A stretch of DNA of 64,000 nt, taken from NCBI RefSeq assembly GCF_003664995.1, contig NZ_JFHL01000001.1, positions 1 through 64,000 on the forward strand, given 5' to 3'. The notes beneath the pieces are model-generated. The model was not told where the DNA came from, did no database searches, and saw only the letters and a list, made by a program, of their open reading frames with translations. This document shows positions 11,820 to 62,158 of this stretch, piece after piece (position 1 is the stretch's first letter; every line of letters starts with the position of its first letter). Both the position numbers and the translations under genes were made by a program. This stretch comes from Mesotoga sp. BH458_6_3_2_1 (GTDB taxonomy: Bacteria; Thermotogota; Thermotogae; Petrotogales; Kosmotogaceae).

Positions 11820-11896
<77 letters not shown>

Positions 11897-20027: not shown

Positions 20028-20695
20028 TTAATCACTCCTTTCGGATTTTGTGAGACCGCATTTAAGCGAAATGACGATAGAATAAAGGATTGTCGCAGGA
20101 AGGATACAATTGGATGTCACATGGAAATCGCAAGAAAGTCAAAATTTACAACGTTACCTACAACGATAATACTCCAACCAGTCTAGTGACCAAAGTCCGA
20201 GCTGAGCCAAATGGGGGCGATTATGGATGATTATTCTTGATGAGAATCGAAAAAGTAGTTCGTTTTCAAAGATTCATATAATAGTGAGGATAAAGAACCA
20301 TTGAAAAGAGCCGTTATCCGTCACAGGTCCGCCGTCCTCCAAAAATAGCACAAAGAGCGGGTTAGCAAGAACGGGTTATCAAAACCGGGTTATGAAAACT
20401 CAGAAAAGGGATTGATTTGCGCAAAGGCAGATTTGCTTCGGGAAGACGCAGTGAGGGACTTACGATAAACTGCTATGGGATGACAATTCCAGACGATTAT
20501 GCAGTTCTTTCTGTAGGGGCGAACGGTTGTTCGCCCGAAAGAGAACCGTGCAAAAGGAGGGACCTCACATACGGAGAACCGGGTCTGGGTTTTTCGCTTC
20601 TAGCTGAATAGACGGTGACATACGGTTAGGAACTCGTCAGTCCACTATTCGAAATGCTACGGGATGACAATTACATACGATTATGCGAATCTTTT
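20028..20695. repeat. repeat-rich spacer with one GTAG REP
   Basis: No gene. From about 20306 to 20695 the text (ttatccgtcacaggtccgcc; gcgcaaaggcagatttgctt; acctcacatacggagaaccg) is shared with 39990-40348, 49870-50132 and partly 55800-55970. A REP hairpin at 20513-20536 has the head GTAG and an eight-bp GGGCGAAC/GTTCGCCC stem. Confidence 0.7.
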
Positions 20696-21011
20696 GTAGG
20701 GGCGAACGGCCGTTCGCCCGTGAGAGCTTGACAATATGTACGCATCGTAGGCAATGTTTGTTGGGAGCAATGGTTGATGGCAGAGTAATCTTGAGTAGCA
20801 TTGGCAGAATCGTTTATGAACATGTCATCCGCAGTGAGAAAGAACTGAATCGAATTCGTGAGTACATTGAGAATAACCCCTTGAGATGGCAGATAGACAG
20901 GGAGAAGCCCGACAGAAAGACAAGTCAGGTCCGTTCAACCATTGAAGAGGACGATCTTTATCCTTGGGAAGATTGATCCTTAATAGCGGGCGTGCCGCCG
21001 CACGCCCCTAC
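20696..21011 (+). mobile_element. internally deleted RAYT/REP element (copy 1)
   Basis: Left REP hairpin 20696-20719 (GTAG head; GGGCGAACGG/CCGTTCGCCC perfect) and right hairpin 20988-21011 bracket a shortened RAYT gene ending at the stop 20974-20976. Compared with the full element at 50420-51101, two blocks are missing: 105 bp (matching 50452-50556) and 261 bp (matching 50644-50904). Both lengths are multiples of three, so an open frame from ATG 20683 still joins TICTHRRQ, IGRIV and YEHVIRSEKEL. It has lost the HLH metal motif but keeps the catalytic-type Tyr region. The copy at 40349-40663 has the same two junctions. Confidence 0.85.
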
Positions 21012-36395: not shown

Positions 36396-37453
36396 TTCGA
36401 TTCTGGAGTAATCTAGAACGACTAGATGCAATTAACATTGACTAAGAGAAATAAACGCATTCTTATTGATGAAATTGTTAGTATTAGTTCTTCTCAACGA
36501 AATGTTTTGTGGTAGTGTTTTCAAAATGGCAGTAACCTGAATCAGATCGATCATTATGCTTCTAGAATAATGATTAGAAAGTAGATTTGCTCATAATTCT
36601 TGAAGGAGCTTGAAACGATAATACCGGAAATTTCGATTCTGACTAAGGCAAAAGAAAAACAAATCAGATACTAAAACGAGTATTCAAAGTCGGTTCAAAG
36701 CGACTCTATCAAGACCTATCAACTTAATTATTGGCGGTTATAAAAACAGCCGGAGATTCCACTATTTGATAGAAATGTTGGATCTGTGAAAAGTTGAGAA
36801 TACAAACCCGGGACTTAAGAACCAGTGGTATCTGCAGCGAGTTTTCGAGAAACAAGTTCGAAGCCCAGATCCCGGATCAAGTCCGGGATGACAGTCCTTT
36901 CCGTCATTCTTGCATAATTCTGGCTAGAATTTGGTTCGTTCAACTATTGAAGAGGACGATCTTTATCCTTGGGAAGATTGATCCTTAATAGCGGGCGTGC
37001 CGCCGCACGCCCCTACATCCGTTTGGATCGAATCTATTCGCACATGCAACTCACAACTGGAACTTGCAACCGTTCTTTTCTGAGAACGGAGAACCTTTCA
37101 ACGGTCAGCCGTTTCTCTTGCTCTTACGAACCCGCTACCTGCTACCACGTACCACGGTTTCTCAAAAACCCAGATCCCGAAACAACAAGTTCGGGATGAC
37201 AATCTTTCGCGTCATTCTGGCATGCTTCTGGCCAGAATTTGGTTCGTTCAACTATTGAAGAGGACGATCTTTATCCTTGGGAAGATTGATCCTTAATAGC
37301 GGGCGTGCCGCCGCACGCCCCGTCAACTTGATTATCATTCTAACTGGTTTTCCAAGGTTTCCTAACTCTAAATCCCACAATCTGGTTCAGCTTTCCAGCT
37401 GGGGATCTTCTTCTCTTTTGAACAAATGGATAACGTTTTACGTTCGAGTAATT
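36396..37453. repeat. spacer ending in tandem RAYT-tail units
   Basis: Positions 36396-36790 show nothing recognisable. From about 36840 repeats start: a CCCGGATCAAGTCCGGG hairpin (36869-36889), then a complete tail unit at 36933-37240. Each unit begins with GGTTCGTTCAAC plus RAYT end codons; the first has its right-end hairpin at 36993-37016 and a CCCGAA/TTCGGG hairpin at 37174-37197. A second unit begins at 37241, 308 bp after the first, and is cut at its right-end hairpin (37301-37320). Positions 37322-37453 run to the alcohol dehydrogenase stop without a recognised feature. Confidence 0.8.
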
Positions 37454-39650: not shown

Positions 39651-40348
39651 CACCTTCGGCAGGAGGCGTTTTCACCTTCTCCGTCAACGGTCCCCCGCCC
39701 TTCGAGAAGGTAGCACAGTAGCATTTTGAGTAGTTTATGAGTCGGCTGATTTTCTTCGCCAGCCCCGATAATCAAGACCCTAGACCCGGTATCAATTCCG
39801 CCATTCTGAGCTCATTTCAGAATCTAGATTTGCTATCTGAAACAACTACATACCGTCTGAACCTTAGAAAGAACTCTGTTTCTTCGATAAGAGCAGTCAA
39901 GAAAGAGCATTGTCGAGAGGTTCGCTGCGCTCGCGAGAAGACGAGAGTTATAATCACTGACTGTCAACCGTCCACCGTTCTCCGACAAAAGCGTAAAGAG
40001 CGGGTTATAAGAAGCGAATTAGCAAGAACGGGTTATCAAAACCGGGTTATGAAAACCTAATAGGGTTGATTTGCGCAAAGGCAGATTTGCTTCGGGAAGA
40101 CGCAGTGAGGGACTTACAATAGACTGCTACCAGATGACAATTCCAGACGATTATTCAGTTCTTTTGTAGTGGCAAACGGCTGTTCGCCCAAAAGAGAACC
40201 GTGCAAAAGGAGGGACCTCACATACGGAGAACCGGGTCTGGTTTTTTCGGTTCTAACGGAATAGACGGTGACATACGGTCAGGAACTCGTCAGTCCACTA
40301 TTCGAAATGCTATGGGATGATAATTCCAGACGATTATGCAGTTCTTTT
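39651..40348. repeat. repeat-rich spacer with one degenerate REP
   Basis: No gene. The 'cgagaggttcgctgcgctcgcgag' family lies at about 39913-39937, and from about 39985 the text matches 20320-20695. A degenerate GTAG REP lies at 40166-40189. Confidence 0.65.
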
Positions 40349-40663
40349 GTAGGGGCGAACGGCTGTTCGCCCGCGATAGCTTGACAAAATGTTCGCATCG
40401 CGGCAATGTTTGTTGGGAGCCATGGTTGATGGCAGAGTAATCTTGAGTAGCATTGGCAAAATCGTTTATGAACATGTCATCCGCAATGAGAAAGAACTGA
40501 ATCGAATTCGTGAGTACATTGAGAATAACCCCTTGAGATGGCAGATAGACAGAGAGAATCCCGACAGAAAGACAAGTCAGGTTCTTTCAACAATTGAAGA
40601 GGACGATCTCTATCCTTGGGAAGATTGATCCTTAATAGCGGGCGTGCCGCCGCACGCCCCTAC
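40349..40663 (+). mobile_element. internally deleted RAYT/REP element (copy 2)
   Basis: Left REP 40349-40372, right hairpin 40640-40663 and a RAYT remnant ending at stop 40626-40628. The two internal deletions have the same end points as copy 1 at 20696 (gc|ttgaca and atcgtt|tatgaa). Here a small indel near 40400 (catcgcggcaatg) disrupts the frame that copy 1 keeps open, so from there only an internal ATG at 40389 remains. Sequence upstream for more than 300 bp is also shared with copy 1. Confidence 0.85.
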
Positions 40664-41289
40664 ATCCGTTTGGATCGAAATTATTTGCAATGCAACTCAC
40701 AACTTGGAACTTGCAACCGTTATTTTCTGAGAACGGAGAACCTTTCAACGGTCAACCAGTTTCTCTTGTTCTTACGAACCGCTACCCGCTACCACCGGCC
40801 ACGGTTTTTCATAAGCCCAAATCCTGAACAGGAGCACTTCAGGATGACTTGATGAGTTGGTTCTGATCAGATTGCTTCAATTTGCCTTCTTCTGCGTTTC
40901 TTCTTTTTACAACTGACAACTGCAACTTGGAACTAATTTTTTGCTTTTTCCAACCACCAACCCGCTACCCCCAACCCCGGTTTCTCGAAGCCCAGATCCT
41001 GAACAGGAGCACTTCAGGATGACAAAATGAGTTGGTTCCTTGGGAAGACTGATCCTTAATAGCGGGCGTGCAGCCGCACGCCCCTACATCCGTTTGGATC
41101 GAATTCATTCGCACATGCAACTCACAACTGGAACTTGCAACCGTTATTTTCTGAGAACGGAGAACCTTTCAACTGTCAACCAGTTTTTCTTGTTCTTACG
41201 AACCACTAACCGCTACCCCCGACAACGTCTTTACGGTGTATACTTTTGATTGTTAGTGGCTTCATTGCTTCAGGAGGGGGTGCAACAAT
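40664..41289. repeat. tandem tail repeats upstream of the threonine operon
   Basis: The first tail runs to a hairpin of the CCTGAA/TTCAGG form (about 40821-40845). A similar hairpin at about 40988-41021 is followed by a shortened RAYT tail (GGTTCCTTGGGAAG at 41033) and a right-end hairpin (41064-41087), then a second tail to about 41228. The last 60 bp hold TATACT at about 41238 and the AGGAGGGGG ribosome site of the threonine operon. Confidence 0.75.
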
Positions 41290-43446
41290 ATGAGAATCGG
41301 GATTGCCGGACTTGGCACTGTCGGGTCCTGTGTCTATGCAATTCTTAAAGACAAGGGAGATGAGATCGAGAAGAGATCTGGGAGAAAGTGTATCGTATCC
41401 AAGGTAATAACCAGGACTCATAGCAAGTACGAAAAACTGGGTATCCCATCCGATCTGGTCGCTGAGGATTTTGAAGATCTTATTATCAATAGCGACATAG
41501 TTGTAGAAACGATTGGCGGGAGCGAAGCCGCAAGAAAGCTTGTAAAGCAGTCTCTCGAGCTGAATAGAACGGTCGTGACGGCCAACAAAATGCTGATTTC
41601 GGAATTCGGTAACGAATTCACAAACAGCTCTCCGATAAAGAGCCTATTCTTCGAAGCGGCCGTCGGCGGGGGTATTCCTATCATCTCTCTTCTCGAGGAC
41701 TATCTCATCTTTCATGGGATCAAACGTATTCGGGGTATTCTGAATGGCACAACGAATTTCATACTTTCCGAGATGCAGAAGGGAATGGACTACGCTTCGG
41801 CTCTGAAGATTGCTCAGGAAAAGGGTTATGCGGAAGCCGATCCAACGAGCGATGTGAAGGGCTACGATGCCGCTTATAAGCTGTCGGTGCTCACCGGCGT
41901 CAAAACGGGCGTCTTCCCCGGTATTTCCACGATTGAAACAAAGGGCATCGAAGGAATAGATAAAAGCGATCTTGAGAGAGCAGCAACCGCAGGGAAAAAG
42001 CTCAAATTGATCGGGACAATTGATTTCGAAAGAGAGGTAGCTTCAGTTCAGCCGCAGGAGATTGAAAGGAATGATCCTCTTTGGAGCGTAGATGGGGTTG
42101 AAAACGCCATAGAGGTCGAGACGGATCTCTCGGGAAGATTTATTCTCAGGGGAGAGGGGGCGGGAGCTCAACCAACTGCAACGGCGATCATTTCAGACAT
42201 TCTCAGGGCATCGAGATACGCAGAGAAGCAGAGTAACTCAGTTGTGATAATGAAATTTGGTGGAACCTCAGTCGACTCGGCAGAGAAAATAAAGGATGTT
42301 GCGGAGAGGGTACAGAAAAAGGTCCTTAGTGGTGTCAAGCCTGTGATAGTTGTGTCGGCTATGGGTGTTGAGACAGACAAGCTTCATGAACTCGCGAAAG
42401 AGATATCCAGCAAACCGAACGGTAGAGAGATGGACATGCTTCTGGCAACAGGAGAGCAGAAGTCCATTGCCCTTGTTGCAATGGCGATTCAGGTGCTCGG
42501 GATGAAATCGATTTCACTTTCGGGCAATCAGGCGAGAATTCAGACCGATTCGAATTTTTCGAATGCAAGAATCGTCGGAATAGACGCCGATCTTATAAAC
42601 AGATACCTATCAAACGGGTACGTTCCAGTTGTGGCCGGCTTCCAGGGATCCACCTACACCGGCGAGATTACGACTCTTGGCAGAGGAGGCTCGGATCTTA
42701 CGGCCGTTGTGTTGGCCAAAGCGCTGGGATCACAACTCTGCGAGATTTACAAGGATGTAGACGGTGTCTATTCGGCCGATCCTAGGATAGTTCAGAAGGC
42801 CAGACCGATCAAAGAGATTTCATGGGAAGAGATGATAGAGCTTTCAAAGCAGGGTGCTCAGGTGCTTCAAAGCAGAGCATCTGAATTTGCCAGAAAGTAC
42901 GATATTAAAGTGCTTGTGAAAAACGCACACTCGAATGCTAGAGGCACGCTAATATGGAGGGGATCGAAAGTGGAACAGCCTATTGTTAGAGCAGTAACTT
43001 CTGATGACGAGATTGTGAAAGTAGTTCTGCAAGAAGTTCCTGATAGACCGGGAATAGCTGCGAGAGTTCTGAAAACTCTTGCAGAGCAGAACGTGAATAT
43101 TGACATGATAATACAGAGCATGAGGAGCGGGGAGTTTAACACAATGGCCTTCACTATACACGGGAGCGATCTCTCAAAGCTGAAACAGGATATCCTTAAG
43201 ACAAGAAGCGAGGCCAAAGAAATAACTGTGGAAAGTTCAATCGCAAAGCTTTCTATTGTCGGAGTCAACTTGACTGCTACTCCGGCAATCGCTGCGACTC
43301 TCTTTGAGACTCTTGCCAATGAAGGAATCAATATCGATATGATCAGCGCCAGCAACAGCAGAATATCGGTTGTTATCGACAGCAATATGGTTCATCTGGC
43401 GGTAAACGCTATCCACAGTGCTTTCAGCTTGGAGGAGATTGTATGA
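41290..43446 (+). CDS. thrA: homoserine dehydrogenase-aspartokinase fusion
   Basis: Bifunctional enzyme of 718 residues for two steps from aspartate to homoserine. Residues 1-320 are homoserine dehydrogenase: GIAGLGTVGS (NADP site), VVTANKMLIS, GILNGTTNFILSEM, AEADPTSDVKGYDAAYK with catalytic Asp/Lys. Residues about 325-570 are aspartokinase: VIMKFGGTSVDS, VVSAMG, GFQGSTYTGEITTLGRGGSDLTA, KDVDGVYSADPR. Two ACT domains (about 585-718: EVPDRPGIAARVLKTLAEQNVNIDMI and a second) give feedback control. Domain order is opposite to E. coli ThrA, as known in Thermotoga. The ATG at 41290 follows AGGAGGGGG. Its stop overlaps thrC by four bases. Confidence 0.95.
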   Translation: MRIGIAGLGTVGSCVYAILKDKGDEIEKRSGRKCIVSKVITRTHSKYEKLGIPSDLVAEDFEDLIINSDIVVETIGGSEAARKLVKQSLELNRTVVTANKMLISEFGNEFTNSSPIKSLFFEAAVGGGIPIISLLEDYLIFHGIKRIRGILNGTTNFILSEMQKGMDYASALKIAQEKGYAEADPTSDVKGYDAAYKLSVLTGVKTGVFPGISTIETKGIEGIDKSDLERAATAGKKLKLIGTIDFEREVASVQPQEIERNDPLWSVDGVENAIEVETDLSGRFILRGEGAGAQPTATAIISDILRASRYAEKQSNSVVIMKFGGTSVDSAEKIKDVAERVQKKVLSGVKPVIVVSAMGVETDKLHELAKEISSKPNGREMDMLLATGEQKSIALVAMAIQVLGMKSISLSGNQARIQTDSNFSNARIVGIDADLINRYLSNGYVPVVAGFQGSTYTGEITTLGRGGSDLTAVVLAKALGSQLCEIYKDVDGVYSADPRIVQKARPIKEISWEEMIELSKQGAQVLQSRASEFARKYDIKVLVKNAHSNARGTLIWRGSKVEQPIVRAVTSDDEIVKVVLQEVPDRPGIAARVLKTLAEQNVNIDMIIQSMRSGEFNTMAFTIHGSDLSKLKQDILKTRSEAKEITVESSIAKLSIVGVNLTATPAIAATLFETLANEGINIDMISASNSRISVVIDSNMVHLAVNAIHSAFSLEEIV

Positions 43447-44489
43447 GAGGTGTAATAGAGACCTATGAGAAGTACCTGCCTGTAACGCAGAAGACCCCGA
43501 GAGTCTCACTCCTTGAAGGTGATACTCCTCTAATACATCTGGAAAAGGCGAGCAAGAAGTTCGGTTTAAATGTTTATGCGAAGTACGAAGGAGCTAATCC
43601 TACTGGATCATTCAAAGACAGGGGAATGGTCCTCGCGATAGCCAAAGCGATAGAAGAGGGCTCAAAGGCTGTTATTTGTGCCTCCACTGGAAACACTTCG
43701 GCCTCTGCAGCCGCTTACTCTGCAAGGACCGGTTTGAAGTCGATAATCTTGATTCCGGAGGGAAAGATCGCTCTAGGCAAGCTTGCTCAGGCGATGATCT
43801 ATGGCGCAAAGGTAATTCAGATAGATGGGAATTTCGATGAGTGCCTTGAACTAGCGAAGAGTATATCGGAGAATTACCCCGTTACTCTCGTTAACAGTCT
43901 CAACCCTTACAGGCTTGAGGGGCAGAAAACGGCTGCCTTCGAAATAGTAGACGTTCTGGGAAGGGCTCCCGATTATCACTTCATACCGGTAGGAAATGCC
44001 GGTAATATTACTGCCTACTGGATGGGGTATCGAGAGTATCACGAAAGTGGTCTTTCAGACGGCCTGCCCAAGATGATGGGCTTCCAGGCCGAAGGGGCAG
44101 CACCGATAGTATATGACAGAGTCTTCGATAACCCCGAGACGATAGCTACCGCGATAAGAATTGGTAACCCTGCGAGTTGGAAGAAAGCAGTTGCTGCAAG
44201 AGACGAATCGGAAGGAGTGATCGAGGCTTTGACCGACGAAGAAATCCTCGAGGCGCAGAGACTTCTTGCGGCTTCTGAAGGTGTCTTCTGTGAGCCGGCT
44301 TCTGCAGCTTCTTTCGGCGGGTTTCTGAGAAAAGCCGAAGAGGGTCTGTTCTGTTCAAGTGATCTCGTTGTCTGTACCCTGACAGGTAATGGACTTAAAG
44401 ATCCCGACGCCGTTCTCAAGTCCGTAGATAAGCCCATCGTAGTAGAGAACAGTCTGGATGCTGTCCTGAAAGAGGCGGGCCTGAAATGA
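43443..44489 (+). CDS. thrC: threonine synthase
   Basis: PLP enzyme of 348 residues converting O-phosphohomoserine to threonine. The PLP lysine is in GSFKDRGM; other family blocks are CASTGNTSASAAAYSARTG, GNAGNITAYWMGYREY and the C-terminal CEPASAASFGG. It is the short (type II) class, without the N-terminal extension of plant enzymes. The start overlaps the stop of the HSD-AK gene (ATGA) and its own stop overlaps thrB, showing tight translational coupling. Confidence 0.95.
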   Translation: MRGVIETYEKYLPVTQKTPRVSLLEGDTPLIHLEKASKKFGLNVYAKYEGANPTGSFKDRGMVLAIAKAIEEGSKAVICASTGNTSASAAAYSARTGLKSIILIPEGKIALGKLAQAMIYGAKVIQIDGNFDECLELAKSISENYPVTLVNSLNPYRLEGQKTAAFEIVDVLGRAPDYHFIPVGNAGNITAYWMGYREYHESGLSDGLPKMMGFQAEGAAPIVYDRVFDNPETIATAIRIGNPASWKKAVAARDESEGVIEALTDEEILEAQRLLAASEGVFCEPASAASFGGFLRKAEEGLFCSSDLVVCTLTGNGLKDPDAVLKSVDKPIVVENSLDAVLKEAGLK

Positions 44490-45334
44490 GGCTGAGGGCA
44501 CCGGCCACAACGGCAAATATGGGAAGCGGATTCGATGTTGTCGGTATGGCTTTGAAGCTCCATAATGTCGTGCAATTTGAGAAGGCAGATAGGTTGAAAG
44601 TCTTGTGCATAGGAAGATATGGTCAGGAGATCGAGAACTCCGAAGGACTATTCGAAAAGGCGATAAAGGGATTCGAGAAAGTTACTGGCAAAGCCGTTCC
44701 TGGCGTTCAGATAATCCAGGAGTGCAATATTCCACCGGCACGCGGCCTGGGTTCAAGTGCCGCAGCGATAGCCTCAGCTCTGTTTATTGCGAACATCGTG
44801 ACCGGCGGGAGTATTCCCATGAAGACACTTCTCCAGATCGGAACGGAGATTGAAGGTCATCCCGACAACATCGTTCCCTGTATGCTTGGAGGGCTTGTGG
44901 TTTCCTACTATGACGGCGAAACACTTGATTATGAGAAATTCGAAATGACTGATCAAAGGCTGACATTTCTTGTGCCCGAATTCAAGCTTTCCACCGGTGA
45001 GATGAGAAAGGCGCTTCCTGAATCGGTTCCCTTCAGGGACGCGATAAACAACCTGAAGAATGTTTCTCAGTTCATTTCGAAAGTCGCCAAAGGCAATCTG
45101 ATCGAAGCCTTCAGATATACTCACGACAGTATCCACCAGATCTACAGAATAAACAGCGACCCCAGAATGAAAGAGCTGATTAGCTGCATTGAAGGAAGGA
45201 ACACGAATTACTGGTTTGTGAGCGGTTCTGGCTCGTCGGTCTGCTGCAATCTCGAAGATGTCGCAGGGCTTCCTTACCTGGAAGCCGTAATAAGAACGTC
45301 TCCCGCGAACGAGCCATTCATTATCGAATTATGA
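44486..45334 (+). CDS. thrB: homoserine kinase
   Basis: GHMP kinase of 282 residues that phosphorylates homoserine. It begins LRAPATTANMGSGFDVVGMAL, the substrate-binding opening of ThrB, and has the ATP loop PPARGLGSSAAAIASAL and the C-terminal WFVSGSGSSVCC motif. The ATG overlaps the thrC stop. It completes the operon: with an Asd encoded elsewhere the cell can make threonine from aspartate. Its end is 24 bp from the end of the convergent asparagine synthetase gene, with no terminator visible between them. Confidence 0.95.
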   Translation: MRLRAPATTANMGSGFDVVGMALKLHNVVQFEKADRLKVLCIGRYGQEIENSEGLFEKAIKGFEKVTGKAVPGVQIIQECNIPPARGLGSSAAAIASALFIANIVTGGSIPMKTLLQIGTEIEGHPDNIVPCMLGGLVVSYYDGETLDYEKFEMTDQRLTFLVPEFKLSTGEMRKALPESVPFRDAINNLKNVSQFISKVAKGNLIEAFRYTHDSIHQIYRINSDPRMKELISCIEGRNTNYWFVSGSGSSVCCNLEDVAGLPYLEAVIRTSPANEPFIIEL

Positions 45335-45358
45335 GCTTTCCAAAAACAACTGCAATAA

Positions 45359-46786
45359 TCAGCTTCTATAAACTGTTTTCGCGGCGCATCCGGAAGGGAA
45401 CAAGTCGTCGAAGATTCGGTAATAAAGAAGTTCTTCCTTCGACCTAATTCCTTTCTCTCGCCTTTCAGTCTCGAATTCGGAATCGCTTATTTTCTCTTCA
45501 GCATATTCCTTCATTAGGTGCGATGAGCCTGAGCCGACGCTGAACTTACTCTTTTTTCGCCATACGACACTTTTGGGAAGTTCGCTCTCGAATGCCTTCC
45601 TGAGAATCCACTTCTCGGTCTTCTCAGGCCCGTGGATTTTCCAATCGACGGGAATTGAGAATGCGAGATTCACAACTGAAGGGTCCATGAACGGAACGTC
45701 GAACTCGATCCCAAATGCTAGGGACATCCTGTCATTGCGCTGAAAGCCCGAACGATAACCGTTTCTCGTTATCCGCAAAGATTCTTCATCTATAGATTCT
45801 GAAGATGGTAGTTCTTTCATATACTCGTAACCGGCAAAGAGTTCGTCTGCGCCTTCTCCCATGAAGACGAAGGAACTACCTTCTTCTGCAGCCATTTTCG
45901 CCACAATGTAGTTTGGAATTGCACTCCTTACTAAGGGAGGATCGAACGACTCAAGGTGGTAGATGACTTCCGGTAGAGTCCTAAGCATCTCTTTGAAATC
46001 ATAAGTATATTCACTGTGGTCTGTCCCGAGATACTCGGAGACTTCCCTGGCGAATTTTGGGTCTTTTCCATCCCCGCTTCCAACGGTGAATGTTCTAAGC
46101 GATCCATTAAGAGAACTCGCCACAGCCGCTATACAGCTGCTATCGAGCCCACCGCTAAGAAATACGATAGGGTCTGAGTTGATCGAAGAGATTCTATTCT
46201 CGATGGCCTCTCCAAGAGATGTTCGAAGCAGCTCCGTTGCTTCATACTCATTTCTCATGACGGGTTCCTCCGTAAGCAGGTCTTCAAGAGAAGAATATCT
46301 CTCAAAGCCCACGAGAGAGGAATAATAATGACCCGGCGGGAAGATTTTTACTTCGTTGCAGAAGGGCGCCAGAGCCTTCATTTCTGATGTGCATACTATG
46401 TATCCATTGATATAGCCGTAGTACAGAGGCTTTAGACCCAGAGGGTCACGGGCGATAAGAGTCTCTTTGTCTGTATAAATTGCAAAGGCGAATGAACCGT
46501 CCAGCTCCTTCAGAAACCCCCTGCCACTTTCCTTATACAATTTCATTATCTTCTCTGGCCAAGCTGTGTCCGGATGATTCCTGAGAAAACCGTCGAAGAC
46601 AACGTACTCGCCATCTCCTTCGAAAATGCTCATTTTGCTGTCGAAGGCCCGGCTGACAACTGCGCCCATGCCTATCTTCTGTCCTGTTTCCAGAACTGTT
46701 GTTCTGCTCCCTCTATGTCCAAGGAGAGACAGTGAGGACTTTGCCATTTCTCTTGTGCCTCCATAGAAGACAGCAATTCCGCTCAT
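45359..46786 (-). CDS. asparagine synthetase B-like, glutaminase Cys replaced by Ser
   Basis: Two-domain protein of 475 residues. Residues 1-190 keep the class II glutaminase fold (GHRGS, ELDGSFAFAIY, RDPLGLKPLYYG), and 195-475 the synthetase domain with PP-loop FLSGGLDSS, FMGEGADELFAGYEY and KFSVGSGS. The mature N-terminal nucleophile should be Cys (MCGI); here it is Ser (MSGIAVF, codon AGC). Glutamine hydrolysis should be impaired, leaving ammonia-dependent amidation of aspartate, or an altered acceptor. The ATG at 46786 is certain from GGAGG eight nt upstream and the conserved GIAVF. It converges on the threonine operon, competing for aspartate. Confidence 0.88.
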   Translation of the reverse strand: MSGIAVFYGGTREMAKSSLSLLGHRGSRTTVLETGQKIGMGAVVSRAFDSKMSIFEGDGEYVVFDGFLRNHPDTAWPEKIMKLYKESGRGFLKELDGSFAFAIYTDKETLIARDPLGLKPLYYGYINGYIVCTSEMKALAPFCNEVKIFPPGHYYSSLVGFERYSSLEDLLTEEPVMRNEYEATELLRTSLGEAIENRISSINSDPIVFLSGGLDSSCIAAVASSLNGSLRTFTVGSGDGKDPKFAREVSEYLGTDHSEYTYDFKEMLRTLPEVIYHLESFDPPLVRSAIPNYIVAKMAAEEGSSFVFMGEGADELFAGYEYMKELPSSESIDEESLRITRNGYRSGFQRNDRMSLAFGIEFDVPFMDPSVVNLAFSIPVDWKIHGPEKTEKWILRKAFESELPKSVVWRKKSKFSVGSGSSHLMKEYAEEKISDSEFETERREKGIRSKEELLYYRIFDDLFPSGCAAKTVYRS

Positions 46787-46865
46787 TCTGAATACCTCCA
46801 TCCTTTTTCATCGTGAAGTCGGATTTGAACCAATTTGATTAAATCCTCAGATTCCTCATTAAACT

Positions 46866-46981
46866 ATTATAACATGGTGCCAAATCTCCAAACTTAACTT
46901 CTGCAGCCAATTTTGTGCATTCGTTGCATATCGCGCGAGACATCGCCTTCACTTAGTTCACAAAGAAGATTCTTGTATAAT
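46866..46981. promoter_or_regulatory. divergent promoter region of the asparagine synthetase and opine-dehydrogenase genes
   Basis: Toward the minus strand there is an extended -10 (TGTTATAAT; TATAAT at 46866-46871). Toward the plus strand TATAAT lies at 46976-46981 with TTAGTT 17 bp upstream as a weak -35. The plus promoter would give a leader of about 80 nt before the GAGGAGGTGG ribosome site at 47071. No riboswitch, including a cobalamin one, is recognised in that leader. Confidence 0.6.
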
Positions 46982-47070
46982 CGGAATACGAACTGAAGTT
47001 TCAGCTTTAAAACTAGTTGCTTCCGTGTTATTTTTTTCTTTTCTAGACAGGGGATTGAGGAGGTGGTTCT

Positions 47071-48150
47071 ATGAAGATAGCAGTAGTCGGTGCAGGCAAT
47101 GGTGGGCAGGCTCTTTCGGCAGTTCTTGCGATGAGAGGGCACGATGTCTCGCTTTATAACAGGAGCCAGAAGAGGATCTCACCTATAATGACTGACCGCA
47201 AGATCAGGGTTGAAGGCGAGTCGAGTGGCAAAGCTAAATTGAGATACGTTGGAACGGATATGAAGAAGGCAGTAGATGGTGTGGAGGCAATCATGGTGGT
47301 TGTGCCTGCCTTTGCTCATGCTCAGATTGCCGGCGAACTGGCCGATTGCGTTACGGAAGGGCAAATCATAGTTCTTAATCCGGGCCGCACAGGAGGGGCG
47401 CTGGAGTTTGACAAGATATTCAGGGAGAAGGGAGCTAGAGAGAAAGTGGTAATTGCCGAGGCCCAAACGTTCGTCTTTGCTTCACGTATTTCCGGCCCGG
47501 GGATGGTAAGAATATTCAGAATCAAGAATGCAGTTCCTGTTTCCGTACTTCCTTCAAAGGACAACGAGGCAATTCTACCGATAATCAACGAGATAATGCC
47601 AGAGTTCACACTTGCAAAGAACGTGCTGTACACGAGTTTCAACAATATTGGTGCCGTCTTTCATCCCGGCGCAATATTGATGAACGCGGGTTGGATAGAG
47701 ACGAAGCACGGAGATTTCCAGTTCTACCTCGAAGGTATAAGCCCCTCTGTTGCAAGAGTTTTGGAGGAGCTCGACAAAGAACGTTGCGAAGTCACGAGCA
47801 AACTGGGCGTCGTTGCAATGGGTGCCAGAGAGTGGCTTGATTACGCGTATGACGTCAAAGGTGACGATCTCTATACGGCCATTCACAGCAATGAGGGCTA
47901 CCGAGGGATCATGGCCCCGATAAGCATAGAGAACAGATACATAATGGAAGATGTTCCTATGAGCCTGGTTCCTATGAGCTGCTTTGGGAGGAAACTTGGA
48001 GTGGAGACAAGAATAATCGATTCGGTAATAAACATAGCTGGAGCAGTAATTGGAAGGGACTTCTGGAAAGAAGGTCGAACACTGGAGAACCTCGGTATAG
48101 ACAGACTATCTGTAGAAGATCTACTCAAGTACGTCGAGGAAGGGAGCTAA
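47071..48150 (+). CDS. opine (octopine/nopaline) dehydrogenase-family protein
   Basis: NAD(P)-dependent dehydrogenase of 359 residues. The Rossmann motif is IAVVGAGNGGQALSAVLAMRG; the middle has VVVPAFAHAQIAG and LNPGRTGGALEF; the C-terminal octopine-dehydrogenase domain has NNIGAVFHPGAILMNAGWIE with the candidate catalytic His. Known members reductively condense an amino acid with a 2-oxo acid, or run the reverse; the true substrate here is unknown. The ATG at 47071 follows AGGAGG. It is followed after one bp by the B12-binding protein, so the two are an operon. The fold also fits ketopantoate-reductase-like enzymes. Confidence 0.88.
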   Translation: MKIAVVGAGNGGQALSAVLAMRGHDVSLYNRSQKRISPIMTDRKIRVEGESSGKAKLRYVGTDMKKAVDGVEAIMVVVPAFAHAQIAGELADCVTEGQIIVLNPGRTGGALEFDKIFREKGAREKVVIAEAQTFVFASRISGPGMVRIFRIKNAVPVSVLPSKDNEAILPIINEIMPEFTLAKNVLYTSFNNIGAVFHPGAILMNAGWIETKHGDFQFYLEGISPSVARVLEELDKERCEVTSKLGVVAMGAREWLDYAYDVKGDDLYTAIHSNEGYRGIMAPISIENRYIMEDVPMSLVPMSCFGRKLGVETRIIDSVINIAGAVIGRDFWKEGRTLENLGIDRLSVEDLLKYVEEGS

Positions 48151-48151
48151 G

Positions 48152-49750
48152 ATGAAGATCTTAGCGGGAGCAATCGGAAGCGACATTCATACAGCAGGCA
48201 TTCTGAATTTCCTTAATCTCGCCGGTAAAGAAGGCTACGAGACTATATACATTGGAAGCGTGATAGGTATAGACAAACTGTTGGATAGCATAGAAGAGGC
48301 TTCTCCGGACATCGTTGCGGTGAGCTACAGGCTGGGAAAAGAGTCTTGCGAAGGTCTTCTCAGGGAGCTTAAGATGTCGCTGGAGAACAGGGGTATTGAG
48401 AAAAGATTGATTTTCGGCGGAACGGTTGAGACCGCGGAAATAGCAAAGAGGAGCGGTCTTTTCGAGAAGGTCTTCGATGGTAGCGAAATGCCGGAAGAAG
48501 TCGTTATGTTCCTCAGGGGCAGGACCGATGCAAAAGGAGAGGTTGATTACCCTCAGACACTTCTCGAAAGGATAACTGCTAAGAAGCCCTATCCGTTGAT
48601 AAGGCATCATATAGGCTTGGAGACCGTTGAAGCAACGGAAGGGGCAGTAAGGAATCTCGCTGAATCCGGCTTACTAGACATTATCTCGTTAGCGCCGGAT
48701 CAGAACTGCCAGCAATGGTTCTTCCAGCAGGAGAACATGATCTCTTCTGAAGACGGTGCTGGCGGCGCTCCCTTCAGAACGAGAGAGGATTTTGAAAGAA
48801 TGTATAAGGCTAGCCGGATAGGTAACTACCCCTTGATGCGCTGTTACTCAGGAACGAGAGATCTTCTCAAGTTCTCGCTTCTTTTCAAAGAAACAATAAA
48901 CAACGCTTGGACTGCAGTTCCTCTGACCTGGTACTCGCAGCTTGACGGCAGGTCGGATCGTGAATTGCTCGAAGCGATAAGAGACAATCAGGGAGCGATC
49001 GCGTGGAACGGAGGAAGTGGAATCCCGGTAGAGATAAACGAGGCTCATCAGTGGGCGTTAAGATACTGCCATGCTTCGATAGAAGTGACTACAGCGTATC
49101 TAGCAGCCCTCTCCGCCAAGCGGCTCGGCGTAAAAGTGTACGTTGCACAATACATGTTTAACACGCCGCCGGGAATCTCTCCAAGAATGGATCTGGCAAA
49201 GGCGCTTGCAAAAAAAGAGTTGATCGAATCCTTGAAGGATGAGAACTTCACACCGGTTACGATGGTAAGGCCAGGATTGATGTCTCTTCCAGCCGACCCG
49301 GATATGGCTAGGGGCCAGCTCGTTTCATCTGTGTACACTGCCATGAAAATGGACCCGGAGATCGTTCATGTCGTTGCATACTGCGAGGCGACAAGAAGAG
49401 CCTCCGATGTGGAAATAATAGAAAGCGTCAAGATGGCTAAACAGGCAATAAACGAGGCAATCAAAGGACTTCCCGACTTCAAGCAGGATAAAGTGATTCA
49501 AGATCACAAGGAATACCTAAAGAGTGAATCTGCTACGATCATAGAGGCAATGGAGAAGATCAAAACAGGTGAACTCACGTCGCCCGAGACTATTTACGCG
49601 GCTATCAAACTGGGCATCCTCGATGCTCCGGGTTTGAGCAAGATGTCAGTCGCCAAAGGGGCAGTTCGAACGGCCATTATCGATGGACAGTCGTGCGCAG
49701 TCGACGAGGAAGGGAAACGGATAGATGAGAAGGAAAGACTCTCACTGTAA
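48152..49750 (+). CDS. cobalamin-binding protein of unknown reaction
   Basis: Protein of 532 residues. Residues 1-140 form a B12-binding domain: DIHTAG (Asp11-x-His13-x2-Gly16, His13 as lower axial ligand), GYETIYIG after it, VSYRLG, and IFGGTVETAEIAKRSG. The rest (about 150-532) contains ISLAPDQNCQQWFF, VPLTWYSQLDGRSDRELL, NEAHQWALRYCHASIEVTTAYL and QYMFNTPPGISPRMDLAKAL, which could be a TIM barrel like the large subunits of glutamate or lysine/ornithine mutases, but I do not recognise the enzyme. The ATG at 48152 follows GGGAG. Co-transcribed with the opine-dehydrogenase-like gene; the two probably act on the same amino-acid-derived compound. Confidence 0.8.
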   Translation: MKILAGAIGSDIHTAGILNFLNLAGKEGYETIYIGSVIGIDKLLDSIEEASPDIVAVSYRLGKESCEGLLRELKMSLENRGIEKRLIFGGTVETAEIAKRSGLFEKVFDGSEMPEEVVMFLRGRTDAKGEVDYPQTLLERITAKKPYPLIRHHIGLETVEATEGAVRNLAESGLLDIISLAPDQNCQQWFFQQENMISSEDGAGGAPFRTREDFERMYKASRIGNYPLMRCYSGTRDLLKFSLLFKETINNAWTAVPLTWYSQLDGRSDRELLEAIRDNQGAIAWNGGSGIPVEINEAHQWALRYCHASIEVTTAYLAALSAKRLGVKVYVAQYMFNTPPGISPRMDLAKALAKKELIESLKDENFTPVTMVRPGLMSLPADPDMARGQLVSSVYTAMKMDPEIVHVVAYCEATRRASDVEIIESVKMAKQAINEAIKGLPDFKQDKVIQDHKEYLKSESATIIEAMEKIKTGELTSPETIYAAIKLGILDAPGLSKMSVAKGAVRTAIIDGQSCAVDEEGKRIDEKERLSL

Positions 49751-50419
49751 GCCAGTCTGCTAACGTGGGCCAGTTCCGACTACTTCGGGCAGAAAAGAGG
49801 GTGAATCGAGAAAGAGCATGTCGAGACGCTCGCGAGAAGACGAGAGTTATAATCACTGACTGTCAACCGTCAGCATCGGGAAGATGCAGTGAGGGACTTA
49901 CGATAAACCGCTACCAGATGAAAGTCCTAGACGATTGTGCAGTACTTTTGTAGGGGCGAACGGCTGTTCGCCCGAAAGAGAACCGTGCAAAAGGAGGGAC
50001 CTCACATACGGAGAACCGGGTCTGGGGTTGTCGGTTCTAGCGGAATAGACGGTGACATACGGTTGGGAACTCGTCAGTCCACTATTCGAAATGCTACGAG
50101 ATAACAATGTCAGACGATTATGCGAATCTTTTGTAGGGGCGAACGGCCGTTCGCCCAAAAGAGTACTGATTAGGAAACAAGAGCAGCAGTTTCACAGATA
50201 GAAGATCCAGATCCTATACAGAAGCACGAGGATGGCAAAGTATGGGGTCGGTATGAGTGACTTGGGATGACGGCCATTCTTTTTTCACGCTACTCTACTT
50301 CTTATTGTTTTTCTGAGCGATTAGCCTTAAGCGTTTCAAACAAGCGGTTCTTCCGGCGATAAGGGTTTTAGTTCTTAATCGTGCAGCAGTATTATAGAAT
50401 AGTGTGTCGATTTCTTTCT
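49751..50419. repeat. repeat-rich spacer upstream of the full RAYT element
   Basis: It starts with a hairpin-spacer array remnant (GCCAGT at 49753, GGCCAGTTCC at 49770), then the 'cgagacgctcgcgagaagacgag' phrase (49822-49846). GTAG REPs lie at 49950-49973 and 50133-50156 (perfect GGGCGAACGG/CCGTTCGCCC). Positions 50296-50419 are a conserved 125-bp segment that recurs in inverted orientation at 56046-56170. It contains TATTATAGAAT near 50390, a possible -10 for the transposase gene. Confidence 0.7.
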
Positions 50420-51101
50420 GTAGGGGCGAACGGCCGTTCGCCCGTGAGAGCAAAAAGATCTCGGAGGGTTGCGTTTTGGAACACAATGAAAGTCTTGTCA
50501 AAAGGCGGTCAATTAGACTGAAGGAGTATGATTATTCTCGAACCGGAGCATATTTCTTGACAATATGTACGCATCGTAGGCAATGTTTGTTGGGAGCCAT
50601 GGTTGATGGCAGAGTAATCTTGAATAGCATTGGCAAAATCGTTGCTGAAGAGTGGCTAAGATCTGCAGAAGTCAGAAAGGAAATCGAACTGGATGCGTTT
50701 GTGATAATGCCAAATCACCTGCACGGGATTGTAGCGATACATGGAGGCGAAAGGGAGATTGTCGGCAACTGTTTGGAAGCAGAAAGAAGAACTATAAAAC
50801 CAAAGACGATTGGTTCTTTCGTGTCGGGTTTCAAAGCAGCTGCAACGGTTCGAGTGAACGAACTTCGCGGCACACCCGGGAAATCTATTTGGCAACGAAA
50901 TTACTATGAACATGTCATCCGCAGTGAGAAAGAACTGAATCGAATTCGTGAGTACATTGAGAATAACCCCTTGAGATGGCAGATAGACAGAGAGAATCCC
51001 GACAGAAAGACAAGTCAGGTTCGTTCAACTATTGAAGAGGATGATCTCTACCCTTGGGAAGATTGATCCTTAATAGCGGGCATGCCGCCGCACGCCCCTA
51101 C
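50420..51101 (+). mobile_element. complete RAYT element between GTAG REP hairpins
   Basis: Left end 50420-50443: GTAG head followed by the perfect hairpin GGGCGAACGG/CCGTTCGCCC. Right end 51078-51101: a hairpin with CTAC at its 3' side, so it is a REP in inverse orientation. GTAG-headed REP hairpins are the known substrates of REP-associated tyrosine transposases. The right hairpin of this copy has one A-C mismatch (GGGCATGC versus GCACGCCC) that deleted copies at 20988 and 40640 lack. The element encodes one protein and is the presumed source of the shortened copies. Confidence 0.85.
50476..51066 (+). CDS. REP-associated tyrosine transposase (RAYT, Y1/IS200-like)
   Basis: Single-strand DNA transposase-like endonuclease of 196 residues. 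Diagnostic blocks are YDYSRTGAYFLTICTHRRQCLL, the HUH motif in FVIMPNHLHGIV (HLH), the long helix IGSFVSGFKAAATVRVNELRG, and WQRNYYEHVIRSEKELNRIREYIENNP with the catalytic Tyr. The TTG at 50476 is chosen because GGAGGG lies about 10 nt upstream; the open frame extends back through the REP hairpin to 50404. A REP hairpin just upstream of the ribosome site could allow autoregulation by transposase binding. It is the only intact copy in the window. Confidence 0.9.
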   Translation: MEHNESLVKRRSIRLKEYDYSRTGAYFLTICTHRRQCLLGAMVDGRVILNSIGKIVAEEWLRSAEVRKEIELDAFVIMPNHLHGIVAIHGGEREIVGNCLEAERRTIKPKTIGSFVSGFKAAATVRVNELRGTPGKSIWQRNYYEHVIRSEKELNRIREYIENNPLRWQIDRENPDRKTSQVRSTIEEDDLYPWED

Positions 51102-51493
51102 ATCCGTTTGGATCGAATCTATTCGCACATGCAACTCACAACTTGGAACTTGCAACCGTATTTTCTGAGAACGGATAACCATTCAACGGTCAACCAGTTT
51201 CTCTTGCTCCTACGAACCCCCTAGCCGTTACCCCTAACCACTTTTTCAAAAACCCAGATCCTGAAGAGGAGCACTTCAGGATGACTTGATGAGTCGGTTC
51301 CTTGGGAAGAATGATCCTTAATAGCGGGCGTGCCGCCGCACGCCCCTACATCCGTTTGGATCGAATTCATTCGCACATTAGTCACAATTTGGAACTTGTA
51401 ACCGTTCTTTTCTGAGAGCGGACAACCTTTCAACGGTCTGCTGTTTCTCTTGCTCTTACGAACCCCCTACCTGCTACCACATACCACGGTTTC
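51102..51493. repeat. tandem tail repeats downstream of the RAYT
   Basis: A first tail ends in a CCTGAA/TTCAGG hairpin (about 51258-51282) and is followed by a shortened RAYT tail (GGTTCCTTGGGAAG at 51297) and a perfect right-end hairpin (51326-51349). The second tail then runs into the truncated HD-GYP gene at 51493. This two-unit layout is the same as at 40640-41228. Confidence 0.75.
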
Positions 51494-53582: not shown

Positions 53583-54287
53583 TATACCCCTCCTAATAAT
53601 TGGTGGTTTTAGTAACAGATATTCTAAAGCAAGTTTGTGCCAAAATCAAGCTGGATTTGCTCTTTTCTGGTGTCATCAGTTTCTATAACCATCTGTCGAT
53701 ATAGCTTTCAAGAGTTGTGTGACAAAATCCCTTCGCTGCCTTATTCGATGAGATGATAACTCGCAATCTCAAGAGAAGAGTAATGAAACGATGTGAAACT
53801 TACTAGCAAGGGGAAAGAGAAAACCTTCCCGATTGATAGTTATAACATCTCAAAAGCTTTGGGTATCTTGAGCACGCGCTGTCTTTGCTGTTAGGCAAAA
53901 ATCATTGAAGTTGGTTTCACTATTGAGAGAAAAAGCGTGAAACTAGTTTCCGCTATCCCGGCCTGTCATTTCCATAAGAAGATAAGAGACTAGAAAGAGC
54001 AGATTAGAAACTGACATGCGCCGAGGTTCATCAGCGGTCGCAATGCCGGCGAAGAACATGCCGGGACGCAAGGCTGAGTGAGAACATCCCGAAATGCTAC
54101 CAGATGAAAGTCCCAGACGATTATGCGAATCTTTTGTAGGGGCGAACGGCCGTTCGCCCGAAAGAGGTCTTGGTTGGAATCTCTGCCTTTTACGCGAAAA
54201 AGTGGACAGACCTTAGGAACTGGTCAGTCCCCATTTTCACTTTTGTTTTTCATAGCGTTCAACTGCTCTTTGCCCGACATAGTCGGA
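53583..54287. repeat. spacer with one GTAG REP
   Basis: Positions 53583-54080 show no gene or recognised repeat. From 54090 the conserved left flank (gaaatgctaccagatgaaag, then gattatgcgaatctttt) leads into a perfect GTAG REP at 54136-54159. The text after it, with 'ggtcagtccccattttc', recurs at about 56399-56510. Confidence 0.65.
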
Positions 54288-55554: not shown

Positions 55555-56770
55555 CCGGAAGACCTTCTTTGTTAGATTTGCTTACTATATATTACCATTT
55601 TGGAAGGATTCTGTGGGATGATTAAGTTCGGCAGCTGCTGACGCAGGCCAGTTCCGCTTCGCTGGCCACAAGATCCGCTGAACGCTGGCTAGAAGACGCT
55701 GATCGCTGTGAAGAGCCATCCTTGGATAAGATTAATCGAGAAAATGTAATGTCGAGACGCTCGCTTCGCTCGCGAGAAGAAGAGAGAGTTGATAGTCATT
55801 AGCCGTCAACGGTCCAATGAGAAAAGAACGGAAAGAGCGGGTGATAAGATGCGGGTTAACTAGAACGGGTTATCAAAACTGGGTTATGAAAACCAAATAG
55901 GATTGATTTGCGCAAAGGCACATTTGTTTCGGGAAGACGCAGTGAGGGACTTACGAATAGACGGGGACAGACGTCAGTAGCCCGTCAGTCCCCTATTCGG
56001 TTCCCTTATCAGTACTCTTTTGGGCGAACAGCCGTTCGCCCCTACAGAAAGAAATCGACACACTATTCTATAATACTGCTGCACGATCAAGATGAAGACC
56101 CTTATCGCTGGAGGAACCGCTTGTTTGAAACGCTGTAGGCTAATCACTCAGAAAAACAATAACAAGTGCATGATTCTGAATGGGATCATTGATCAAGAGG
56201 ATCGTCTACCGGCTCTTCACGTTCTTCCTGTGCAGCATATCTTTTGCTCCTCTCGCTCGGAGTTCGGAAAATCGTTTACGGTGAACCTGCAAATGTCTCC
56301 CGCCTAAGGTGAAACGGACGGGGGGACGTCAGAAGCCCATCAGTCCCCTACTAGAAATGCTACCAGATGACAATGTCAGACGATTATGCGAATCTTTTGT
56401 AGGGGCGAACGGCTGTTCGCCCGAAAAAGGTCCTGGTTGGAATCTCTGCCTCTACGCGGAAAAAAAGGACCTTAGGAACTGGTCAGTCCCCATTTTCGCC
56501 CTCGCCTTCTCTTGAGCGAAGCGAACTCTCGAATATGTTCTTTCTCGGCTACTCACAGCCTTGCAACATGGCACTTGGAACTGTTCTTCCAGCGTTCAGC
56601 GGCACTTTGAGATGGCAGTTCATATAGGGATTCTCTTAGGGGAAAACGTTGTCCAGATTCACCAGAATCTATCACATGAATGCCTACGAGAAATCAACCC
56701 GGCCACTAGAAAATCTTTTATAGACTAAGATACGAGCTCTTGTTGCAGCAGGTATTCTCCCTCAATCGTT
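55555..56770. repeat. repeat-rich spacer, including inverted REP and RAYT 5' flank
   Basis: No gene. At 55627-55672 lie CTGCTGACGCAG and GGCCAGTTCCG (hairpin-spacer family), then the 'gatcgctgtgaagagcc' and 'cgagacgctcgcttcgctcgcg' phrases (55690-55785). A REP in inverse orientation lies at 56022-56045, followed by 56046-56170, the inverted copy of the segment that precedes the full RAYT (50296-50419), but with no transposase gene. A direct GTAG REP lies at 56399-56422. Positions 56520-56770 show nothing clear. Confidence 0.75.
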
Positions 56771-57365: not shown

Positions 57366-58567
57366 GATTGATCACCACCTAGTAAATTGATTAGTATACC
57401 ATAACATAACACGATTTGTGACAGAAAACACCTTTTCGGTTGATCCCATCGAAGGGAATAGATCTTGAAACGAGTTCATGACGGAATTGATAGCGGGTCT
57501 TGAGTTAGGGTCTAGGGTGTAGTGAAAGAAACGATCTTCTCTGCAGTTATTCCATGGATCATGCTTTGATGAGCTCCACAGGATTTCATTTTTCTCGTTC
57601 TTCTCATTGTTTCTCTTCTTCTTGCAAAGTCCTCGTTTTTCGCTATGAATCGAGATTCAGGCCAGAATTATGCCAGAATAACGGGAAGGACCGTCATCCC
57701 GGACTTGATCCGGGATCTGGGCTTATGAGAAACCGTGGTCGGTGGCAGCAGGTGGCGGTTCGTAAGAGCAAGAGAAACTGGTTGATTGTTGAGTGGTTCT
57801 CCGTTCTCCGCGAAGACCGTGGGCGACTAGAAATAAGGATCGAGATTCTGAAACAAGTTCAGAATGACTGTATGTGACGTATTCGGAGAACCCTCTGGGA
57901 TGCTGAAACAAGTTCAGCATGACGAAATCTCGGACGAATAACCAAGAACTTGGACGCGTAGCGTCGGAACGAAGAACCGTTTTTCTCAAAGGGCGACTCT
58001 AGTTTCAGCATAACGGCATCAGAAGTTTTTTTCTTGGCTTGCAACTTGGAACAGTCAACTCCTAACTGCTCTTCGAAGGACGGGTTCATGGTTTTGGACG
58101 AAGGACCAAGTACGGCTCTTTGCAGTGGTCAGCGGGTTCTCCGCTCTTAAGCGCACAGCGGCTCTTCTCCCGCGAAGCGGAACTGGCTTCAAAATCGCCT
58201 CCTGCCGAAGGCAGCATTGCGACCTGGGCTGTTCTTGCCCAGCCTTGCGTCTTATTCCGTTCTTTCCGACCCCCTAGCGCTATCCCCGACCACTTCTTCA
58301 GAAGTGCAGATCCCGAAACGAGTTAGGGATTACAGTCCTTTGCATCATTCTGGCACGCTTCTGGCCAGAATTCGGTTCGTTAAACTACTGAAGAGGACGA
58401 TCGCTATCCTTGGGAAGACTGATCCTCAATAGCGGGCGTGCCGCCGCACGCCCCTACATCCGCTTGGGTCGAAATTATTTGCACATGCAACTCACAACTT
58501 GCATCTTGGAACTTGCAACTGATCTATTTCGGATAACGGTGAACCTTCTACGGACAACCATTGTCTA
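57366..58567. repeat. repeat-rich spacer with covarying hairpins and a solo RAYT tail
   Basis: No gene. A CCCGGACTTGATCCGGG hairpin lies at 57696-57716 with the tail repeat in inverse orientation (57720-57815). Hairpins of the CTGAA/TTCAG type lie at about 57845-57868 and 57899-57923. Text of the 'ggaccaagtacggct' family is at 58098-58160, and hairpin-spacer material (CTGCC/GGCAG; CTGGGC/GCCCAG) at 58180-58250. A CCCGAAAC hairpin is at about 58310-58332. A solo RAYT tail starts at 58374, with right-end hairpin 58434-58457. Confidence 0.75.
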
Positions 58568-61285: not shown

Positions 61286-62158
61286 GCTTCAACCTCCGTT
61301 AATAGACCAATTACAGGCTTTGTCTTAGTTAAATTCGAATATTTAGGCCCAGATCCCGGATCAAGTCCGGGATGACAGTGTTACTTGATTGCGAGAACGG
61401 TACTTACAATCGTGCTGAAAGAAGCCGTCCTTGGTCCTTCGTCCAAAACCATGAACCCGTCCTTTGAAAGAGCCGCTGCACGCTTAAGAACAAGAACCCG
61501 CTGGCCGCTGCGAGAAACTCAAGAAACATTCCTGGTACACTTTTCGAGTTCATGTGCCTGTCCTTTGAGAAAAACGGTTCTTCGTTCCGACGCTACGCGT
61601 CCAGGTTCTTAGTTCTTTTTCAGCATCACGTTACTCTGAGATTGTTTCAACATTTAGGCGCCTTTTGCGAAAACGTCACATCACGTCATGCTGAAATTGT
61701 TTCAGCATGACGGCGGGCTTTCCGAATACGTCAAATACAGTCATTCTGAACTTGTTTCAGAATCTCGACGTTTCTTTCCAGTCACCCGCATGCTTTCCCT
61801 CGGAGAACGGACAACTTTCCAACGGTAAACCTGTTTCTCCTGCTCTTCCAAACCCGCCACCTGCTACCACCGACTACGTTCTCATAAGCCCAGATCCTGA
61901 ACAGGAGCTTTTCAGACAGAATAGGTTCGTTCAACTATTGAGGAGGACGATCTCTATCCTTGGGAAGACTGATCCTCAATAGCGGGCGTGCCGCCGCACG
62001 CCCCTACATCCGTTTGGATCGAATTTATTCGCACATGCAACTCCGTGCAACTTGGAACTTGTAACTGTTATTTTCTGAGAACGGACAACCATTCAACGGT
62101 CAGCCGTTTCTCCTGCCCTTACGAACCCGCTACCTGCTACCACCGACCACGGTTTTTT
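61286..62158. repeat. repeat-rich spacer with covarying hairpins and a solo RAYT tail
   Basis: No gene. A CCCGGATCAAGTCCGGG hairpin lies at 61353-61373. The 'ccttggtccttcgtcc' family spans 61430-61610. GCTGAAATTGTTTCAGC (about 61690-61707) and TTCTGAACTTGTTTCAGAA (about 61744-61762) are two stem variants of the same hairpin type. A solo RAYT tail starts at 61924, with right-end hairpin 61984-62007 and common tail to about 62157, ending directly at the ABC-2 permease stop codon. Confidence 0.75.

Follow-up and report, generated by a model that had tools for sequence, protein, structure and literature searches.

A RAYT gene lies between two outward-pointing GTAG hairpins

The window, i.e., the whole 64,000-nucleotide stretch from Mesotoga sp. 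BH458_6_3_2_1 (genome G000) analyzed here, carries a RAYT (TnpA-REP) coding sequence of 196 codons on the plus strand (50476 to 51066), bounded on either side by a hairpin. The left-end hairpin (LE; GTAGGGGCGAACGGCCGTTCGCCC, 50420 to 50443, plus strand) has a GTAG head, and the right-end hairpin (RE; 51078 to 51101) is inverse and ends in CTAC, its reverse complement, GTAGGGGCGTGCGGCGGCATGCCC, giving the GTAG head on the minus strand. Both heads point outward. The two were located by hairpin search and folding, and as single-stranded DNA, LE and RE folded with z-scores of -3.3 to -4.0. The open frame of the gene begins at a GTG (50404) and reads across the left hairpin; the probable start is the TTG at 50476, 7 nt past a GGAGGG, which gives a protein of 196 residues, with the stop at 51066. 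A full RAYT gene between a GTAG-headed hairpin and a CTAC-ending inverse hairpin had been proposed in an earlier, sequence-only reading of the window, and is indeed present where it was placed. Elsewhere in the window, three tRNA genes are clustered on the minus strand (11739 to 12042).

Allowing up to 3 mismatches, the window held 10 LE and 10 RE hairpins, i.e., exactly the nine further copies of each that the sequence-only reading had given as a minimum, while 100 dinucleotide shuffles of the window yielded no LE and no RE hairpin. ORFs of at least 150 aa cover 67% of the window, and, excluding the RAYT and one doubtful ORF, they overlapped none of the 20 hairpins, which all lie in spacers. 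Counting across the whole G000 genome against a control gave 67 LE and 63 RE matches at up to 3 mismatches and none in the control (near-perfect palindromes may count on both strands here), and 59 and 37 matches, respectively, at up to 1 mismatch.

The RAYT protein is assigned to TnpA-REP subclass 2.4

The protein matched the Pfam family Y1_Tnp (E 2.4e-6) and the NCBIfam model REP_Tyr_transpos (70 bits, E 1.5e-19, under the model's 80-bit cut-off). In a PDB search with a 58-sequence profile, the E. coli TnpA-REP structure 4ER8 was the sole match (1.1e-8), and for the AlphaFold2 model (pLDDT 84), Foldseek ranked 4ER8 best (E 5.5e-8), followed by ISDra2 and IS608. The motifs NHLH (HuH), SIWQRNYYEH (WQ), and YIENNP (Y) fit those published for subclass 2.4, including its WQ and YIxNNP signatures (PMC6006769), and thereby support the family assignment. 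The leucine of NHLH falls outside the published set NH[IFV]H, a slight departure that is shared by 15 of the 79 members of the tree described below. The flanking GTAG REPs have three G-C pairs at the stem base, as is typical of the subclass, and, as in GTAG REPtrons, the gene is flanked by REPs that are also dispersed genome-wide. A REP inserted between HuH and Y, frequent in subclass 2.4 without being universal, is missing from the window gene. Judged from its sequence, the window gene is a TnpA-REP of subclass 2.4 (RAYT group 4), and we regard this assignment as sound. The dN/dS ratios among the copies of G000, G025, and G028 (copy G028b) were 0.18 to 0.33, indicating that the protein is under purifying selection.

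A relative in genome G017 (L042/L073) encodes VGAIHELP between HuH and Y, a peptide that corresponds exactly to the REP GTAGGGGCAATTCATGAATTGCCC translated in frame. G000 itself has two further genes for Y1 transposases, of about 300 aa (C7:27753-28157 and C9:34791-35195). The other Y1 transposases of these genomes, of the YVERNP type and including these two, were considered as RAYT kin and rejected; they are different, and those included in the tree, the C7 one among them, form a separate clade.

Hairpin abundance tracks the intact gene

We surveyed 103 Thermotogota genomes, counting hairpins at one mismatch. An intact RAYT gene was present in three of them, namely G000 (the window's own) and G025 and G028 (orthologues with 94 to 96% identity), and G029 has a copy broken by stops. 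Hairpins numbered 96, 56, and 48 in the three genomes with an intact gene, 10 in G029, and 0 to 3 in every other Thermotogota genome searched. The LE 5' leader was absent from the seven genus members tested, all lacking an intact gene and including G029. Hairpin abundance thus tracks the intact RAYT gene, and the idea of a gene-hairpin link survived the search for hairpins equally frequent in genomes without the gene, which the sequence-only reading had named as evidence against it (0 to 3 versus 48 to 96 copies). The four carriers are congeners, not four independent tests, and may reflect one gain.

A scan of genome contigs retrieved 80 relatives of the protein in about 20 phyla. A GTAG hairpin, nearly always beginning GTAGGG, lay within 400 nt of the gene in 41 of these 80, compared to 1 of 80 in a control with a crude dinucleotide-block shuffle. 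In the 79-member tree built from these relatives, the Mesotoga group's three intact copies cluster in a single clade, whose closest neighbors are Ignavibacteria and Bacteroidetes sequences, and the other Thermotogota RAYTs are placed elsewhere; many branches are weak and bootstrap support was unsettled. These separate positions point to repeated horizontal gain of RAYTs, as far as the weak branches allow. No RAYT relative was detected in the viral contigs searched, and a plasmid search gave 8 matches, all below 60% identity.

GTAG REPs have been published for Proteobacteria, Cyanobacteria, Chloroflexi, and the PVC group, and Thermotogae have been reported with CGTC REPs only (PMC3733652). The GTAG REPs and RAYT of the window were taken in the sequence-only reading to extend the range of such systems; the phylum is not among the published hosts, and relative to the literature consulted this does appear to be a range extension. 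The accompanying view that these systems are known mainly from proteobacteria does not hold for this subclass, which we found in about 20 phyla and which has been published from Cyanobacteria, Bacteroidetes, and scattered phyla (PMC6006769).

Flanks of the 682-bp unit suggest that it moves as a whole

From GTAG to CTAC, the two hairpins and the gene make up a REPtron-like, putatively mobile unit of 682 bp (50420 to 51101, plus strand). We compared four complete or near-complete copies (one each in G000 and G025 and two in G028), together with the decayed copy of G029. The unit is 682 bp long in three copies and 684 bp in one, and the differing flanks start exactly at its edges. On the left, there are three unrelated flank types, each stopping at GTAG, and on the right two types, each beginning past CTAC. 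The G028 copy at C26:19858-20541 aligns to window positions 50419 to 51102 and the alignment ends there on both sides; the genus search found its right flank nowhere else, and the break falls exactly at the end of CTACA. The second near-complete copy in G028, elsewhere in the genome, has one internal stop codon.

For G000 and G028, the unit had a dS of 0.074, compared to 0.51 to 2.0 for neighboring genes, indicating that it passed between the two lineages long after their split. For G000 and G025, the unit's dS was 0.10, inside the neighbor range of 0.004 to 0.40, and no transfer need therefore be assumed there. In G028, the copy whose right flank is unique lies downstream of the gene that also precedes the copies of G000 and G025, and the insertions are thus not clearly independent. 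Moreover, solo copies of LE are joined to different flanks as well, and homologous recombination within the 24 bp of the hairpin could be enough to exchange left flanks, with no transposition involved. Searching for joined patterns across LE returned hairpin-bearing copies and one decayed remnant (G000:C10:878-928) but no 0-nt empty site, the joined flanks of the G028 copy gave no uninterrupted site, and a precise empty site was found neither for the 682-bp unit nor for a solo hairpin. Although no clean empty site was found, these comparisons suggest that the 682-bp GTAG...CTAC unit moves as a whole, a behavior that published surveys describe as undemonstrated for the RAYT family. As a separate observation, G025 (C1:166913-175564) has a second copy, 78% identical, of the operon at window positions 41037 to 49740, adjoining the first.

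Most dispersed hairpins are parts of longer repeats

Nearly every hairpin copy belongs to a longer repeat. All 16 RE copies examined come with 40 nt or more from the region of the RAYT 3' end and, downstream, with a common flank of about 60 nt; they often occur in tandem units of about 305 bp, and most do not terminate at CTAC. RE copies are thus pieces of the RAYT 3' end with the DNA that follows it, and not solo REPs. In the window, hairpin search placed such RAYT-tail fragments, all with RE on the minus strand, at 15128 to 15151, 36993 to 37016, 41064 to 41087, 58434 to 58457, and 61984 to 62007, and an RE with an altered head, GACG, in tandem with that at 36993, at 37301 to 37324. The second RE beside the gene (51326 to 51349, minus strand), 248 bp beyond the first, is part of a direct duplication of the RAYT tail and downstream flank; G025 has a single copy.

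Most LE copies have a left flank (leader) of 38 to 40 nt in common and are followed by one of several right flanks. Hairpin search identified LE copies on the plus strand at 20513 to 20536, 40166 to 40189 (3 mismatches), 54136 to 54159, and 56399 to 56422; flank comparison further showed that the copy at 49950 to 49973 (plus strand) lies within a longer repeat. G025 has one LE where G000 has two (50133 to 50156, plus strand, and 50420), and the LE at 56022 to 56045 (minus strand) belongs to a unit present once in G000 and as three tandem units in G025. The tandem LE unit is about 250 bp long, and G000 and G025 have different numbers of it. Unrelated left flanks were seen in a few LE copies, and there too the break is at GTAG; at G029 C8:41312, for example, orthology to G000 C7:80311 is confined to the right side. 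The dominant left flank varies by species, being U1 in G000 and G025 and U3 in G028.

Sequence comparison also revealed two internally deleted RAYT derivatives, both running from LE to RE on the plus strand (20696 to 21011 and 40349 to 40663). Both carry the same pair of deletions, and they have long common flanks, indicating that they are copies of one another. Gene duplication was rejected as the source of the RAYT remnants in the window, since the three copies lie downstream of genes that bear no relation to one another. Short tandem arrays of 14-bp units with CGGGTTAT adjoin RAYT-derived repeats at 20342 to 20413, 39999 to 40070, and 55836 to 55907. Mosaic repeats built as GACGCAAGGC-hairpin-GGAAGTGATGCC, in which the short hairpin varies, were noted in spacers at G029 C16:133180-133390 (L150) and G025 1259650-1259800.

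LE copies were also found joined to hairpins of a second kind. In G000, 20 of 71 LE copies are joined to an intact CGTC-type hairpin whose head lies 26 to 29 nt (mostly 26 to 27) from GTAG, compared to 1% at random positions, and a further 35 retain the spacer with the CGTC hairpin broken. Such hybrid, head-to-head CGTC-GTAG dimers, with heads 26 to 27 nt apart, occur in G000 and G025 (e.g., L123:2405 and L112:6233), and we found no description of them in the literature. The window has 17 CGTC- or TGTC-headed REP hairpins (0 to 1 in shuffles), among others at 814, 3841, 15004, 15310, 21171, 21204, 36869, 36902, 37174, 37210, 40996, 57692, 57900, 61353, and 61684. G025 has 124 of these REPs and G019, a genome without this RAYT, has 22. 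On G025 C1, the CGTC REPs among the matches listed keep one orientation over long stretches (e.g., minus at 1.70 to 1.91 Mb, plus at 2.1 to 2.8 Mb).

Proposed mechanism and alternative explanations

We consider it likely that the locus is a REPtron of subclass 2.4 with a mobile 682-bp unit, and that many hairpins have multiplied as mosaic passengers. At the sequence level, this proposal builds on the protein family and fold, the exact unit ends, the gene-hairpin link, purifying selection, and recent spread between species. By analogy with its relatives, the tyrosine HuH transposase would most likely bind the hairpins on single-stranded DNA and read GTAG as a guide; in TnpA-REP, a GTAG guide selects a CT cleavage site adjoining the hairpin (PMC8266576). 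The cut would presumably fall at a nearby CT dinucleotide, after which the strand would be rejoined, and both this chemistry and the choice of strand are predictions. In the regions examined, a CT lies 0 to 4 nt before GTAG in 128 of 129 LE copies, compared to 32% of random positions with CT within 6 nt, although these copies share flanks and are not independent (about six distinct flank types, by eye). On the plus strand of the right end, ATAG precedes the RE hairpin and CT follows it, an arrangement that might correspond to an IS200-like right end. The unit would move whole, within and between related species, many hairpin copies would then have been carried along as longer mosaic repeats in the spacers multiplied through tandem and segmental recombination, and internal deletions would have produced the LE-RE derivatives and tail fragments.

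Alternatively, the RAYT could be domesticated and immobile, processing REPs only, if flanks changed by homologous recombination among hairpin repeats and low dS arose by gene conversion after interspecies exchange. In line with this, the left hairpin is common to many repeats with the same flanks, and the RAYT follows the same upstream gene in three species. We nevertheless think this unlikely, given that the unique right flank in G028 breaks right after CTACA, where no other repeat offers homology, and that a second near-complete copy, with its one internal stop codon, sits elsewhere in that genome. It has a better, if somewhat less than even, chance of being true that solo hairpins were never spread by the RAYT and are purely passengers of mosaic repeats multiplied by slippage, unequal crossing-over, or gene conversion, which is compatible with the mechanism preferred here. 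The leader common to most LE copies, the RAYT tail and downstream DNA on all RE copies, the tandem units of about 250 and 305 bp (the former differing in number between G000 and G025), and the lack of a detectable empty site for the 24-bp hairpin all fit such passengers; that hairpin number follows the gene across species, that several unrelated left flanks all break at GTAG, and that the dominant left flank varies by species do not. Of the claim in the sequence-only reading that the protein mobilizes the hairpins, what stands is that the RAYT has its own GTAG REPs, whose number tracks the gene. With RE copies being RAYT-tail fragments and LE copies sitting mostly in longer mosaics, the claim is unsupported for each solo copy, and to imagine a single enzyme dispersing hairpins one by one is an oversimplification.

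Two further explanations carry far less weight. The hairpins, every one of which is in a spacer, could be selected transcription terminators or RNA-processing signals with the RAYT as a chance neighbor; this is very improbable, considering the 0 to 3 copies in each searched Thermotogota genome without the gene, the same hairpin type beside RAYT relatives in unrelated bacteria, and the tandem repetition of copies. We give slightly less credence still to an ordinary class 1 IS200/IS605 insertion sequence, which would share the HuH-Y1 fold and unit-like ends. The class 1 Y motif and IS-type ends were not found: YIENNP is of the class 2 form Y---NP, 4ER8, a REP transposase, was the only relative that the sequence search of the PDB returned and also ranked first by fold, and GTAG heads and high hairpin copy number are foreign to IS200.

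Relation to known systems and significance

The element is of a known kind (a GTAG REPtron of subclass 2.4), with some IS-like behavior. It shares with subclass 2.4 (PMC6006769) the HuH, WQ, and YIxNNP motifs, a patchy distribution over many phyla, and flanking GTAG REPs with a G-C stem base, but it is found in Thermotogota, its gene has no inserted REP, and the unit appears to move whole and to leave internally deleted copies. As in published GTAG REPs and REPtrons (PMC3733652), a GTAG head and short palindrome occur in high copy number in spacers, with the RAYT in between; however, the phylum is not on the published GTAG list, and the copies here are mostly in mosaics, often head-to-head with a CGTC-type REP. 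GTAG REPtrons are characterized by a lack of unit movement and low similarity between copies; on this point, the exact ends, different flanks, and low dS observed here suggest movement, with no empty site found. The TGTC/CGTC-headed hairpins are of the same kind as the CGTC REPs of M. prima and K. olearia, for which no transposase is known (PMC3733652), but many sit 26 to 27 nt from a GTAG hairpin. The fold, the predicted HuH-Y1 chemistry, and hairpin ends with guide sequences are shared with IS200/IS605 elements (IS608, ISDra2), from which the element differs in its class 2 Y motif, its conserved GTAG guide, and the absence of a second gene from the unit.

The evidence for whole-unit movement, which would take an empty site to prove, is the part that most merits specialist attention. 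GTAG REPs are hereby added to a phylum for which the literature consulted reports only CGTC REPs (PMC3733652), and the hybrid CGTC-GTAG dimer is one for which we found no description. The genus comprises members with an intact, a broken, and an absent gene and with matching hairpin numbers, making autonomous mobility and REP seeding directly testable. Tentatively, and with rather more doubt than confidence, we propose that the RAYT element moves autonomously by transposition of the GTAG...CTAC unit, spreads from species to species, and gives rise to internally deleted, nonautonomous copies. If true, it would stand between IS200-type insertion sequences and domesticated RAYTs as a living intermediate, and head-to-head fusion would give the orphan CGTC REP class a possible transposase.
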